DNA of 36,794 nt from positions 1 to 36,794 of the forward strand of contig JAMPXO010000041.1 in NCBI GenBank assembly GCA_023701125.1, in the 5' to 3' direction. Origin of the DNA: Vicinamibacteria bacterium. GTDB taxonomy: Bacteria; Acidobacteriota; Vicinamibacteria; Fen-336. Shown here piece by piece: positions 2,827-29,397 of this stretch; the first letter of the stretch is position 1, and each line of letters begins with the position of its first letter. The notes below the pieces were generated by a model that was not told where the DNA came from, made no database searches, and worked only from the letters and a program-made list of their open reading frames with translations. The position numbers were made by a program, and so were the translations under genes.

Positions 2827-2850
2827 GGCGCCGGATTGGGTTCCGGCGCC
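2827..2850 (+). terminator. GC-rich hairpin after the TM2-like gene
   Basis: A perfect 9-bp stem, GGCGCCGGA / TCCGGCGCC, closes a 6-nt loop (TTGGGT), starting 8 nt after the stop codon. There is no T-run after it, so it is either a non-canonical intrinsic terminator or a 3'-end stabiliser. The stem is seen directly; its role is inferred from position. Confidence 0.55.
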
Positions 2851-2881
2851 GGGGTGAACCCGTCGCCGGTCCCGCGGGCCT

Positions 2882-2950
2882 GGGCGGAGGAGCGAAGCGA
2901 CGGAGCCCAGCGGCCCGAGCGCCGGGATTCACTCCCGGCGCGAGCCGCCC
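2882..2950 (+). repeat. Dispersed structured repeat, copy 1
   Basis: The copy begins with GGGCGGAGGAGC (2882-2893), continues with GCGACGGAGC and GGCCCGAGCG, and forms a perfect 9-bp hairpin GCGCCGGGA-TTCAC-TCCCGGCGC (2919-2941). It ends in GAGCCGCCC (2942-2950). The same blocks in the same order occur on the minus strand at 29012-28939 and in part at 2963-3027. Between copies the stem sequence differs but pairing is kept. It lies in a 313-bp stretch without genes. Confidence 0.7.
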
Positions 2951-2962
2951 TCGGGGGCTTGG

Positions 2963-3061
2963 GGGCGGAGGAGCTTCCGTTCGCGACGTAGCCCCCATGG
3001 GACCGGCGACGGGCTCTGCCCGGCGTCGGAACCCGACGACGCTCACGCCGCGAACGGACGC
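2963..3061 (+). repeat. Dispersed structured repeat, copy 2, with outer inverted arms
   Basis: It begins 81 bp after copy 1 with the identical 12-mer GGGCGGAGGAGC (2963-2974), then TTCCGTTCGCGACG, close to the minus-strand copy. A 10-bp stem with one mismatch (3005-3014 / 3018-3027) closes the same TCT loop seen in copy 3. The segment 2973-2992 is also inversely repeated at 3041-3061, sharing the core TCCGTTCGCG, so the whole unit can fold as a long outer stem with an inner hairpin. It ends about 70 bp before the kinase start. Confidence 0.65.
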
Positions 3062-3132
3062 GGCCCCGCACCCCGGTCAGCGCTCGCCGCCGGACGTTCT
3101 TCTGCTAACGTCCGGGCTTCACTGGAGCGCGC

Positions 3133-5340
3133 ATGATCGGCGAGTCGGTCTCCCACTACCGGATCAAGGCCCGGCTGGGAAGCGGGGGCATGGGCGTCGT
3201 CTACGAGGCCGAGGACCAGAAGCTCGGCCGTCACGTCGCGCTCAAGTTCCTGCCGGCGGAAATGGCGCAGGACAAGGGCTCGCTCGAGCGCTTCCAGCGC
3301 GAGGCGCGGGCCGCCTCGGCGCTGAACCACCCCGGCATCTGCACGGTCCACGAGATCGACCAGCACGAGGGGAAGCACTTCATCGCGATGGAGCTGCTGG
3401 AGGGCGAAACGCTCGCCGACCGCGTTCGCCGCGGCCCGTTCGACCTGGGAGCACTGCTCGACACGGGCATCCAGATCGCCGATGCGCTGGAGTCGGCCCA
3501 CGCCAAGGGCATCGTCCACCGCGACCTGAAGCCGGCCAACGTGTTCGTCAACGCGCGTGGCCAGATCAAGATCCTCGACTTCGGCCTGGCCAAGATCGAC
3601 CGCACCCGCGCCGCCATCGCGGGCGACCACTCCGAGGCGCCGACCGCGGTGCAGCCGCACGAGCTGACCACGGCCGGCACCATGCTCGGCACCGTCTCCT
3701 ACATGTCGCCCGAGCAGGCCCGCGGCCAGGTCACCGACGCCCGCACCGACCTGTTCTCGCTGGGCACGCTGCTGTACCAGCTCGCGACCGGCACCCTGCC
3801 CTTCCCTGGCGAGACCTCGGCCGTGGTGTTCGACGCGATCCTCAACCGCGAGCCGCTGCCGATCCACCAGGTCAACCCGTCGCTGCCGGGCGAGCTGGGC
3901 CGGATCGTCGGCCGCGCGCTGGAGAAGGACCGCAACCTCCGCCACCAGACCGCCACGGATCTCAAGACCGAGCTGATGCGGCTCCGGCGCGAGCTGGACT
4001 CGGGCGGTCGCCGCAGCGCCGAGCCCGACTCCCGCAGCGGGGTCCACAAGGCCGCCGAGAAGTCGGTCGCGGTGCTCTACTTCGAGAACCTGTCGGGGGT
4101 GAAAGAAGACGAGTACCTGCGCGACGGCGTCACCGAGGACATCATCTCGGAGCTGTCCAAGATCAAGGGCCTGAAGATCTTCGCGCGCTCGACCGTGCTC
4201 GCCTTCCGCGACAAGGAAGTGGCGCCGGCGCAGGTCGGCAAGCAGCTCGGTGCCGCCTACCTGCTGACCGGCAGCCTGCGCCGGGCGGGCCAGCGGCTGC
4301 GCATCAACGCCGAGCTGGTCGACACCCAGACCGACTTCCCGATGTGGTCCGAGCGCTTCGACCGCGAGATGGCCGACGTGTTCGAGGTCCAGGACGAGAT
4401 CGCCCGCAAGATCGCCGAGGCGCTGCGCATCAAGCTCTCGGCCCAGGAACAGGAAGCGCTGGCCACCCGGCCGACCGACAACCTGCAGGCCTACGACCAG
4501 TACCTGCGCGGCAAGGCCTACGCCCGGCGGCTGACCCGCCAGGACCTCGAGTTCGCGCTGCAGTGTTTCCAGAACGCGGTGGCACTCGATCCGCGGTTCG
4601 CGCTCGCCCACGCCGCCATCGCCAGCTCCTGCGCCCAGTACTACCAGCACTTCGACCGCGGGCCGCAGTGGCTGGAGCGGGCCCGCGCCGCCAGCCACGA
4701 GGCGAGCGCGCTCGGCACCCAGGCGCCCGAGATCCTGATCGCCGAGGCCTGGATCCTCTACACCGAGTCGCAGCACGAGGAGGCCATCCAGCGCGTGCGC
4801 AAGGCGATCGAGCGCAAGCCTGACGTCGAGGGCGCCTACTACCTGCTCGGCCGCGCGCTGTTCGCCGCCGGCCGCTACCAGGAAGTCGCCGACATGGCGG
4901 ACGCCGCGGTGGCCGCGGCGGGCGAGGACTACAACATCTACGTCCCGCTCCACAACGCGTTCGGTGCGCTCGGCAAGAAGGACGGGCTGCGCAACATGGT
5001 GCTGCAGCGCATCCAGGTGATCGAGGGCCACCTCAAGAAATTCCCGGAGGACGCCCGCGGCCGCACCCTGCTGGCCACGGACTACGCCCAGGTCGGCCGC
5101 CAGGAGGACGCCTTCCGCGAGGCCAACCTGGCGATGGCGCTGCGCGCCGACGACGCGATGGTGATGTACAACGTCGCCTGCGTCTTCGGCCAGCTCGGCA
5201 AGCCGCCCGAGGCCCTCGACGCGCTACGCAAGGCCAAGGAGGCCGGCTGGAAGGACGCGACCTGGGCGCGCCGCGACCCGGACCTCGCGATCCTCCACGG
5301 CCTGCCGGAGTTCGACAAGCTGTACCCGTCCGCCGACTGA
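3133..5340 (+). CDS. Ser/Thr protein kinase with TolB-like (FlgO/TolB_N) and TPR domains
   Basis: The 735-residue protein has three parts. Residues ~8-285 are a Hanks-type kinase: glycine loop GSGGMG (16-21), ATP lysine K38, catalytic HRDLKPAN (H129, D131), DFG at 149-151 and an activation segment ending [10 protein letters not shown]. Residues ~310-430 match the TolB-like N-terminal domain found with adenylate cyclases and kinases ([34 protein letters not shown]). Residues ~440-735 are TPR-like helices ([24 protein letters not shown]). No transmembrane segment is visible, so the protein is probably cytosolic. GGAG (3123-3126) precedes the ATG, and TAACGT with a TG extension (3103-3111) could be its -10. 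Such kinases are numerous in Acidobacteriota and Myxococcota. Substrates are unknown. The exported asparaginase follows after 17 bp. Confidence 0.93.
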
Positions 5341-26388: not shown

Positions 26389-26408
26389 GGGGGCGCGCCA
26401 GCGCCCCC
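26389..26408. terminator. Hairpin between convergent EF-hand and permease genes
   Basis: A perfect 8-bp stem GGGGGCGC-GCCA-GCGCCCCC sits 16 bp after the EF-hand stop and reaches the first base of the permease stop codon. It can fold in RNA from either strand, so it may end both transcripts. There is no long T-run on either side. Confidence 0.6.
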
Positions 26409-29062
26409 TACTCCTCGCGGAGCGCCACCAGCGGGTCGACGCTGGCCGCGCGCAGCGCCGGCGGCAGCGCCGCCGCCGTCGCCGCGGCCAGCAGCGCCAA
26501 CGGCACCAGCGCGTACACGAAGGCGTCGAACGCCTGCAACTGGGGCACGCGCGACGCCAGCAGCGCGGACAGCGCGAGGCACGGCAGCGCGCCGAGCGCG
26601 ATCCCGATCGCCGCCCGCCGGGCGGCATCGCCGAGCACCGAACCCAGCACGCCGCCGCGGGTCGCGCCCAGCGCCATCCGCACCCCGATCTCGCGCGTCG
26701 CCTGCGCGACCGCGAAGGCCACCTGGCCATGCAACCCGAGACAGGCGAGGCCCAGGGCCAGGCTGCCCAGCCCGAGCGCGATCCGCGCCAGCACCGTGAA
26801 CGGCACCCGCTGCCGGCCGAAGAGGTCGGCCAGCGTCCACGGCTCGCACAGCAGTCCCTCCGTGGCGCAGGCCTCGCGCAACGGAGGCAGCGCCGCGTGC
26901 GCGTCGCCCGCCACCCGCACGAGCAGGTTGTCGACGCCCGCCTCCCCGAATCGGCCCGGGAGATAGACCGCACTCGTGTCGCGGCCCTGGAAGAAGAAGC
27001 CGCTCGCCACGTCGGCCACCACGCCCACGACCTCGAACCGGCGCGGCGCGGCTTCGTCGAGCTCCAGCTCGAGCGTGCGGCCGAGCGGGTCGCGGCCCGG
27101 CCACAGCAGCCGCGCCGTGTTCTCGCTGACGACCACCACCGCGGTGCCTGCGTCGGCGGCGGCCAGCCCGCGGCCGCGACGCAGCGCGATGCCGAGGGTG
27201 TCGAAGAAGTTCGCGTCGACGGCGTTGAAGCCGAGCCGCAGGCGCGTTCCGTCCACCGTCGCGTCGACCCGCGGCAGGAAGCCCGCGAGCGGGGTGAACA
27301 GGCTGGCGCCAGCGCCGCGCACGTCAGGCCGCTCGCGCAGCCGTTCCGCGAGCGCCGGGTCGGCGCGTTCCGCGTTGAGGTCGACCACGCCGGCCAACTC
27401 GAAGCCGACGTCCAGGTCGTCGGCGCGGGCCGCGTTGCGGGCGATCAGCCCGGCACCCACCAGCAGGATCACGCTGGCGGCCACCTGCGCGACCACCAGC
27501 CCGCCGCGCAGGCGGCCGGCGCTGACGCGCCCGCCGAACCACGCGCCGTCGCGGGTGAAGCCCGAGCGCAGGTCGACGCGGGTCGCCTGCAGCGCCGGCA
27601 ACAGGCTGCCGAGCACCGCGACGGCGAGGCCGACCACGGCACCGGCGACGGCCACGCGCGCGCTGATCGCCACTGGCGAAACCACCATCCCGGCCTGGGT
27701 GACGAGCGAGAACATCGCGCCCTGCAGGCCAGCGATCGCCGAGCTCGACAGCGCCCAGGCCAGGCCGAAGGCCAGCAGGCCGACGAGGACGCCCTCGACG
27801 AGCAGTGGCCGCAGCAGCCGCGCCCGCGAGGCGCCGAGCGCGGCGCGCAGCGCGACGTCGCGGCGCCGGGCGGCCGCCCGCGCCAGGTGCAGCCCGGTCA
27901 GGTTGGCCGCCGCGACCGCCGTCACCAGCACGAAGGCGAGGATCAGGCTGGCCGTCAGCGGGGCCAGGTCGCGGCCCTCGCGCAGCAGCGTGGTCCGCGA
28001 CTCGACGAAGGCCGCGCGCGGGCCAGTTCCCGGCTCCGCGCGCAGCGCCGCGGTGAGCGCGGCCGCCGCCTGCTCGGCCGTCGCGCCCGGGCGCAGCAGC
28101 GCGCCGACCGCGTAGGTCCACGCCTCGCCGCGGGCGGCGAGCAGGCGTTCTGCTGCGGGAGCGGGCAGCCAGAAGTCCGGCACGACGGGCTCGAGCCCGG
28201 TCACGCTCTCGGCCAGCACGCCGACGACCGTGAACGCCACGCCGTCGACCAGCAGGCTGCGGCCGATCACGTCGGGCGCGGCGTCCGCCAGCCGCTGCCA
28301 GCCGCTGTGGCTGAGCACCAGCACGGGTTCGCTGTCGGCGAGGCCGGCCCGCGGACCGAACGCCCGCCCGTGCGCCACCGCGGGGCGCAGCAGGTCGAAG
28401 TAGCCGCCGCTGACGACCGCGGCGTGGGCGCGGCGCGGCACGGCCCCGCCGATCGTGAAGCGGCGATCGTCGAAGACGTAGCCCTGGTCGAGCACGCTCG
28501 CGGCGCCCTGCAACAGGCGCAGGCCGCGCTCGCGCTCGAGGGCGGTCTGCCGCTGGTCGCCCGCGGTCACCACCAGCTCCACGTGGCGTTGCGCCCCGTC
28601 GAAGGGGAGCGGGCGCAGCAGCCAGGCGTCGGCGAAGGCGAAGGCCACCAGGTCGGCCGCCAGCACCAGTCCCAGCACGGCGCAGGCGATCGCCGTGAAG
28701 GCGGGGCTGCGGCGCAGGGCGCGGGCCGCGTCGCGCAGGTCGGCGCCCAGCTCGTCGGCCAGCCGGTAGCCGGCGGCCTCGCGACACTCCTCCTTGTAGT
28801 GCTCGGTGGCGCCGAACTCGAGCCGCGCGCGGCGCTGCGCCTCCGCCGGCGCCAGGCCCTCGCGCTCCAGGTCGGCGGCGCGCAGCGCGAGATGGGCCGC
28901 CATCTCCTCGCGCATCCCGGCCTCGAACTCGCGACGTCGGGCGGCTCGCGTCAGGCAGAGCCTGACGCTCGGGCCCTCGGGAGCTCCGTCGCCAACGGAC
29001 GCTCCTCCGCCCCCGAACCCCCGCCGGCGCGCGAGGCGCGACAACGCCGACAGCGCGCTCAC
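26408..29062 (-). CDS. MacB/FtsX-type ABC permease (acidobacterial ADOP-like)
   Basis: The start is GTG 29062, in GTGA with the padR stop; the product is 884 aa. The N terminus carries the soluble helix pair typical of acidobacterial orphan permeases (REFEAGMREEMAAHLALRA, AEAQRRARLEFGATEHY). Then come a first transmembrane helix, a large periplasmic MacB-core domain (~110-360), three helices (~365-500, including LRAALGASRARLLRPLLVEG), a second MacB core and three final helices (with IGVRMALGATRGGVLGSVLG). The duplicated MacB_PCD-FtsX layout without a nearby ATPase gene fits the ADOP group. Oddity: residues ~15-44 (GFGGGGASVGDGAPEG onwards) interrupt the usual RR(R)-x-FE junction and are encoded by a dispersed repeat. 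Transported substrate is unknown. Confidence 0.9.
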   Translation of the reverse strand: MSALSALSRLARRRGFGGGGASVGDGAPEGPSVRLCLTRAARRREFEAGMREEMAAHLALRAADLEREGLAPAEAQRRARLEFGATEHYKEECREAAGYRLADELGADLRDAARALRRSPAFTAIACAVLGLVLAADLVAFAFADAWLLRPLPFDGAQRHVELVVTAGDQRQTALERERGLRLLQGAASVLDQGYVFDDRRFTIGGAVPRRAHAAVVSGGYFDLLRPAVAHGRAFGPRAGLADSEPVLVLSHSGWQRLADAAPDVIGRSLLVDGVAFTVVGVLAESVTGLEPVVPDFWLPAPAAERLLAARGEAWTYAVGALLRPGATAEQAAAALTAALRAEPGTGPRAAFVESRTTLLREGRDLAPLTASLILAFVLVTAVAAANLTGLHLARAAARRRDVALRAALGASRARLLRPLLVEGVLVGLLAFGLAWALSSSAIAGLQGAMFSLVTQAGMVVSPVAISARVAVAGAVVGLAVAVLGSLLPALQATRVDLRSGFTRDGAWFGGRVSAGRLRGGLVVAQVAASVILLVGAGLIARNAARADDLDVGFELAGVVDLNAERADPALAERLRERPDVRGAGASLFTPLAGFLPRVDATVDGTRLRLGFNAVDANFFDTLGIALRRGRGLAAADAGTAVVVVSENTARLLWPGRDPLGRTLELELDEAAPRRFEVVGVVADVASGFFFQGRDTSAVYLPGRFGEAGVDNLLVRVAGDAHAALPPLREACATEGLLCEPWTLADLFGRQRVPFTVLARIALGLGSLALGLACLGLHGQVAFAVAQATREIGVRMALGATRGGVLGSVLGDAARRAAIGIALGALPCLALSALLASRVPQLQAFDAFVYALVPLALLAAATAAALPPALRAASVDPLVALREE
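28939..29012 (-). repeat. Dispersed structured repeat, copy 3, inside the permease gene
   Basis: Read on the minus strand it starts with GGGCGGAGGAGC (29012-29001), then GTCCGTTGGCGACGGAGC and GGCCCGAGCG. It forms a perfect 9-bp hairpin GCGTCAGGC-TCT-GCCTGACGC (28968-28948) and ends with GAGCCGCCC (28947-28939). Similarity to copy 2 continues upstream to about 29024. The order matches copy 1 throughout and the hairpin stem shows paired changes. It encodes permease residues from about 15 on, in frame. Confidence 0.7.
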
Positions 29063-29397
29063 CGGGCCAACGCCTTCGAGCGCAACACCTGCTCCATCGC
29101 CTCGACCAGCCGCTCCCAGGAGGCCAGCTCTTCGGACAGTCGCCCGCGGCCCGCGGCGGTCAGCGCGTAGAACTTCGCGCGGCGGTTGTTCTCCGAGCTG
29201 CCCCACTCGCTGCGGACGAGGCCCTGCTTCTCGAGCCGATAGAGGGCCGGGTACAGCGCCCCCTGCTCGATCTGGAGCTCGCCTTTCGAGAGCTGCCCGA
29301 GCCGCTGCAGCACGCCGTAGCCGTGCTCCGGCCCGAGCGAGACGGCCTTCAGGATCAGCAGGTCGAGGGTCCCGGGCAGGATCTGCGCGCCGCTCAC
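29059..29397 (-). CDS. PadR-family transcriptional regulator
   Basis: The 112-aa protein starts at GTG 29397 and has the PadR winged helix: GTLDLLILKAVSLGPEHGYGVLQRL, IEQGALYPALYRLEKQGLVRSEW and the wing with NNRRAKFYALTAAG. The C-terminal helix (WERLVEAMEQVLRSKAL) is the short dimerisation type. It lies directly after a strong promoter and palindrome, so autorepression is likely. The permease is translationally coupled to it (GTGA), a very common pairing in Acidobacteriota. The signal it senses is unknown. Confidence 0.93.
   Translation of the reverse strand: MSGAQILPGTLDLLILKAVSLGPEHGYGVLQRLGQLSKGELQIEQGALYPALYRLEKQGLVRSEWGSSENNRRAKFYALTAAGRGRLSEELASWERLVEAMEQVLRSKALAR

Follow-up and report, generated by a model that had tools for sequence, protein, structure and literature searches.

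A probably mobile repeat of two hairpins dispersed through the genomes of one Acidobacteriota genus

The window analysed here, the 36,794 nucleotides of contig JAMPXO010000041.1 from Vicinamibacteria bacterium, carries members of a dispersed repeat family. One island spans 2836-3080, because an inverted copy is interrupted there by two plus-strand copies; it is flanked by a small gene whose end is at 2819 and by a kinase-like gene that begins at 3133. A further copy is situated between two minus-strand predicted genes (26408-28915 and 29059-29397). The components, with their cmsearch matches to covariance model R1, are as follows.

2836..2878, minus strand: hairpin II half of the interrupted inverted copy, the minus strand reading GGGACCGGCGACGGGTTCACCCCGGCGCCGGAACCC; R1 match 2836-2923 (-), 39.7 bits.
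2880..2949, plus strand: short-loop variant copy, nested in the inverted copy; R1 match 2875-2951 (+), 29.9 bits.
2951..3038, plus strand: canonical copy; R1 match 2954-3036 (+), 103.7 bits, E 3e-17.
3042..3080, minus strand: remaining half (hairpin I) of the inverted copy, the minus strand reading GGGGTGCGGGGCCGCGTCCGTTCGCGGCGTGAG, assigned by comparing it by eye with L156:1453-1536, which is intact, and L001, which is interrupted; R1 match 2997-3080 (-), 20.8 bits.
28937..29021, minus strand: copy 3, with hairpin II CCGAGCGTCAGGC TCT GCCTGACGCGAGCC; R1 match 28937-29021 (-), 64.1 bits.

A first-pass annotation had described three copies sharing short sequence blocks and a hairpin with compensatory changes. 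The common block GGGCGGAGGAGC occurs exactly at 2882 (+), 2963 (+) and 29001-29012 (-), and the 10-mer GGCCCGAGCG ascribed to copies 1 and 3 at 2912 (+) and 28966 (-). The stems GCGCCGGGA/TCCCGGCGC of copy 1 and GCGTCAGGC/GCCTGACGC of copy 3 (minus strand) are both present, and their positions 4, 6 and 9 are indeed altered on both arms together. The stem given for copy 2, 10 bp around TCT, needs amendment: the TCT loop is there, but the arms CCGGCGACGGGC/GCCCGGCGTCGG are longer and pair imperfectly, with an A.G mismatch and a G.T pair. The annotation had missed the minus-strand orientation of copy 3, the inverted copy split into 2836-2878 and ~3042-3080, and a second, sequence-fixed hairpin (GGGGGC..GCCCCC) located 5' of the one described; the real unit is ~84 nt long.

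As read from aligned copies, this unit consists of GGGGGTTT, hairpin I, AT, hairpin II and G. In the canonical copy, hairpin I occupies 2961-2996 (GGGGGC..GCCCCC) and hairpin II 2999-3034 (GGGACCGG..CCGGAACCC), and the right end is CCCGACG. The short-loop copy reads TGGGC GGAGGAGC GAA GCGACGGA GCCCA, followed by GGCCCGAGCGCCGGGA TTCAC TCCCGGCGCGAGCCGCC. The segment 2836..2878 forms an inverted repeat (I2) with 2994-3034, and an intact copy of its subtype is found at L156:1453-1536. An inverted copy with the same short-loop variant nested between its hairpins is seen not only in the window but also at L001 and L019.

Hairpin I, GGGGGC-GGAGGAGC-7 or 8 nt-GCGACGTA-GCCCCC, is near-invariant in sequence with a purine-rich core (GGAGGAGC..GCGACG). 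Its inner part comprises GC/GC flanked by would-be tandem G.A mismatches, for which we infer a G.A geometry. In a second subtype these positions become GGAGCCGC..GCGGCGTGA, read from the sequences as two C-G pairs, and pairing in the inner part of hairpin I is therefore supported. Hairpin II, GGGACCGGCGCCGGG-loop-CCCGGCGCCGGAACCC, is variable in sequence with compensatory changes. A plain MAFFT alignment of 23 copies has 7 pairs in which both sides change, a value seen in 0/500 shuffles; among 111 distinct copies, aligned by fitting to the covariance model and hence leaning towards it, such change affects 16 pairs and 79 cells over the whole structure, neither value being reached in 500 shuffles, and 95% of cells are paired. 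RNAalifold alone gave only 14 pairs because the mixed subtypes were misaligned. The covariation had been taken to point to selection on a folded RNA or a DNA cruciform; it is real and folding matters, the RNA and DNA forms being indistinguishable by sequence. In some arrays (L206:4001-4168, L231:12326-12496 and L204:8426-8595), adjacent units have hairpin I in common and differ in the sequence or subtype of hairpin II, as if the hairpins had been exchanged as modules.

That the copies belong to a dispersed family, as the first three had suggested, is borne out by a covariance-model search, which gave at least 150 matches in the 5.4-Mb host genome (G000); within the 1.33 Mb of it taken as regions around matches there are 230 distinct copies. 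The whole genome contains 166 occurrences of the exact pattern GGGCGGAGGAGCN{3,12}GCGACG and none of its reversed control, well beyond chance. With the covariance model, 44 and 61 copies were found in the two congeners and none in a further 27 genomes from the same family, order and class. The exact core plus stem, present at 149 places here, is absent from all 395 other Acidobacteriota genomes in a draw that excluded the congeners. Among the genomes searched, the family is found only in its genus. All are draft assemblies, with completeness of 95% for G000 and 85% and 92% for the congeners G001 and G002. Contigs C72, C73, C38, C140, C179, C218, C222, C227 and C123 of G000 begin or end inside or beside arrays. 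Since contigs end inside arrays and the assembly breaks there, copy number and array lengths are underestimated. A plasmid or phage origin was rejected, neither collection containing a similar sequence, and a literature text search did not find the core sequence. A contig filed under an Armatimonadetes MAG, L087 (JACPDV010000033.1), is ~95% identical to L204 of G000 and holds two repeat copies; it is probably mis-binned or mis-named.

Orthologous sites with and without a copy define the ends of the unit. In the cleanest case, the filled site at L156:4001 reads ...GGGAGTC[GGGGG...CCCGTC]GGGGACGG, whereas its orthologue L283 is empty and reads ...GGGTGTCGGGGACGG (in short form, ...GAGTC[GGGGG...CCCGTC]GGGG versus ...TGTCGGGG). 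Similarly, L058 in G001 carries a copy and the orthologous site in L156 has none (...GAGGTCGGC). Although many such comparisons are blurred by 10-20% divergence, the empty sites place the element ends at GGGGG and CCCG plus at most ~3 ambiguous bases. No long target duplication was seen, any duplication amounting to at most ~3 nt. The left flank is CCCGNC-like in 18 of 67 copies, where a background of 1.8% would be expected ahead of GGGG, and the left and right flanking dinucleotides match in 23 of the 67, where 11.9 are expected (0/5000 shuffles). This is a weak target motif, and some of the left flanks consist of what remains of older copies. Multi-copy islands make up 36 of 181, and in 34 of these 36 the copies lie on the same strand, head to tail, usually with a period of 83-88 nt. 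The median identity of array neighbours is 97.5% compared with 84% for dispersed pairs, so arrays grow mostly by local duplication. Together, the empty sites, nesting and arrays suggest that the copies are mobile.

Overall, we consider it likely that the repeat is a mobile but non-autonomous DNA element, specific to the genus, ~84 nt long and with two hairpins, which a recombinase spreads in trans. This enzyme would read hairpin I by its fixed, purine-rich core and hairpin II by its fold, probably as a DNA hairpin or cruciform, and the copy ends GGGGG...CCCG[A/T]C would be joined at CCCGAC-like targets, duplicating little or nothing of them. Arrays would then arise through local tandem duplication, and selection would retain copies behind genes or, at a length of 28 codons, within them. 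Part of the spread could be accounted for by arrays, recombination and descent alone. That tandem duplication, recombination and palindrome-correcting template switching made and scattered the whole family with no mobility is, in our judgement, extremely improbable. It would explain the near-identical array neighbours, and template switching can mimic covariation, but clean single insertions occur at sites that are empty in congeners, and the mismatch at columns 91/112 is kept in 52 of 111 copies, so palindrome correction is not general.

The position of the copies relative to genes was assessed with genes called by a simple codon-usage method written for this analysis, and the counts are drawn from regions picked for holding copies. 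Of 103 inter-gene islands, 31 lie between convergent genes, compared with 111 convergent pairs among the 968 gene pairs without a copy (p 2e-6), and the median distance is 11 nt to gene 3' ends and 70 nt to 5' ends. This proximity to gene ends, the enrichment in convergent gaps and the strong covariation would suit a cis-acting structured RNA (a 3'-end stabiliser, attenuator or terminator) multiplied through its usefulness behind genes. Such an RNA is nevertheless unlikely. Relative to both flanking genes, 31 copies have the same orientation and 26 the opposite, and this lack of strand preference argues against a cis-acting RNA, all the more as the sequence of hairpin I is asymmetric. Moreover, the consensus has no T tract, and Rfam gave no match at the gathering score in the window, the best permissive match scoring 20.9 bits against a cut-off of 71. 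The copies inside genes, considered next, are also at odds with it, about half of these 50 islands being antisense. The evidence favours mobile DNA over regulatory RNA.

Real genes contain at least 50 of the islands, the coding signal being present to either side of the element and weak or absent across it; the inserts are in-frame, ~28 residues long and antisense in roughly half of the islands. Orthologues without the 28-residue insert were found in four cases, two glycosyltransferases, a peptidase and a membrane protein (names read from the sequences), and the DNA shows the same for an acyl-CoA synthetase-like gene in G001. Genes hold 22 of the 60 cases with a 7-nt loop (84 nt, equal to 28 codons) and 10 of the 83 with an 8-nt loop (Fisher p 0.0009). 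In the sense orientation a single frame, with the peptide GLGAEELRSRRSPHGTGAGFTPASEP, takes 17 of 21. These biases in loop length and frame are consistent with selection favouring inserts that keep the reading frame and contain no stop.

It is chiefly in Rickettsia that palindromic repeats are known to insert often, and in frame, into protein genes. A review from 2024 describes the frequency of in-frame fusion of the RPEs there as unusually high and such events in other prokaryotes only as supposed (PMC10969869). The islands described here, several of them with insert-free orthologues in sister species of the Acidobacteriota host, make its occurrence elsewhere testable. Like our repeat, the RPEs are short and palindromic with many in-frame copies in unrelated protein genes, and some bear the CGTC tag of a super-family that has no dedicated transposase (PMC10969869, PMC3733652). 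Compared by description, they differ in being ~150 bp long, against ~84 nt, two separate hairpins, head-to-tail arrays and an Acidobacteriota host here, and sequence homology to them is unlikely because of the high G+C content of the present sequence.

A resemblance to REP-type elements had also been proposed, and it holds in so far as the family is dispersed and REP-like; it breaks down in that the Y1 transposase is absent, the unit is 2-4 times the 20-40 bp of literature REPs, there are two hairpins and copies are often in genes. The GTAG REPs and REPINs, with their RAYTs, likewise comprise dispersed hairpins between genes spread in trans, but theirs is a single 20-40 bp hairpin with GTAG at one end, whereas here two different hairpins are present, frequent copies lie in genes, and GTAG, when it occurs, falls within hairpin I, many copies having GGAG instead. 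A classical REP whose Y1 (HUH) RAYT transposase was missed or lost is very unlikely. The hairpins, high copy number and position behind genes agree with it, and hairpin II, at whose foot a paired GGG/CCC adjoins a target-like end, may recall the end architecture of IS200/IS605. Against this, the search for a Y1 transposase recommended by the first-pass annotation gave no PF01797 match in G000 (95% complete) or the congeners G001 and G002 (85% and 92%), control genomes being positive, so that a Y1/RAYT mover was rejected for all three copy-bearing genomes; in addition, GTAG is not terminal and multi-copy islands are mostly head to tail rather than inverted pairs.

A 2013 survey divided palindromic repeats into GTAG and CGTC super-families, the latter including the Rickettsia RPEs and having no dedicated transposase (PMC3733652). 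The CGTC-tagged REPs, among them Neisseria dRS3, RPE-4 and RPE-6, are listed in five phyla, Acidobacteria not being one (PMC3733652). They resemble our repeat in their location behind genes and at convergent pairs and their want of a dedicated transposase, and may do so in the tag at the end of the hairpin (PMC3733652). They have one stem of 8-9 bp, almost always starting with AT, a CCA tail and a mostly inverted-pair arrangement, clusters being rare (PMC3733652). Our unit contains two hairpins, the second of which (hairpin II) has 14 pairs and starts with GGG, the arrays run head to tail (34/36 multi-copy islands same-strand) and the tag is variable: on the minus strand the right end is CGTC-GGGTTCC in 30 of 97 single copies, CATC in 19 and CGAC in 14. 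MITEs are characterised by terminal inverted repeats and a target duplication matching an IS; the repeat has a weak end similarity by eye (GGGGGTTTGG / CGGGTTCC) and a duplication of at most ~3 nt, and no parental IS was found in the 1.33 Mb sampled. Pneumococcal BOX elements are likewise modular repeats with tandem units whose mover is not known, but their sequence and module layout are probably unrelated. The repeat works like REP, RPE or MITE elements, and its anatomy fits none of the families checked. With the transposase expected of a REP missing, the family is well suited to a search for what moves CGTC REPs, RPEs and similar palindromic repeats that have no transposase.

Other movers were sought in the same genomes. 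A SINE-like, reverse-transcriptase mover was rejected, there being no RVT_1 in G000 or G002 and one copy with stops in G001; at G001:C12:262115-262766 (L314-L316) a reverse-transcriptase gene is broken by in-frame stops or frame breaks. A multicopy IS as parent was also rejected, as no transposase-like paralogue family occurs in the 1.33 Mb sampled. This result, the failure to find any transposase gene flanked by copies and the weak target motif count against a mobile element. Each copy-bearing genome does contain one intact, single-copy gene for an IS110-type DEDD recombinase (~359-382 aa).

G000:C211:1180-2235 (L318), IS110-type gene.
G001:C40 (L319:916-1992), IS110-type gene.
G002:C121 (L320), IS110-type gene.

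Between the two congeners the protein is 98% identical and its gene appears to occupy the same location; in G000 the identity is 68%. Outside these genomes, the nearest homologues are matches, partial or split, in family members that carry no copies. We regard this recombinase as a candidate mover, but only as a lead. As a special case of the mobile element favoured above, its mobilisation of the repeat in a partnership like that of REP and RAYT, with another enzyme, is unlikely. IS110 elements use sequence-specific sites, have no inverted repeats and often target REPs (PMC11208160), and such site use agrees with the weak target motif and the dinucleotide match; the presence of one intact gene in each copy-bearing genome also speaks for it. 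However, no repeat copy adjoins the gene, and IS110 relatives are also present in other, copy-free genomes. It is a more speculative and improbable suggestion that the repeat and the solitary recombinase would form a domesticated pair, continually adding 28-residue peptides to host proteins, with the hairpin I core as a recognition structure that recurs in Armatimonadota.

A different repeat family, at L106, L076 and L322-L349 (Armatimonadetes SZAS-2, G060), L111 and L124 (Fimbriimonadaceae) and L108 (Clostridia), has the hairpin I core, GCGGAGGAGCGNAGCGACGAGGGnnTGGCCCGGGC, between long outer arms, and this likeness to the repeat described here may reflect either homology or convergence. The outer arms of this family differ from copy to copy and remain complementary, and the core pattern has 16 matches in G060 against none for the reversed control.
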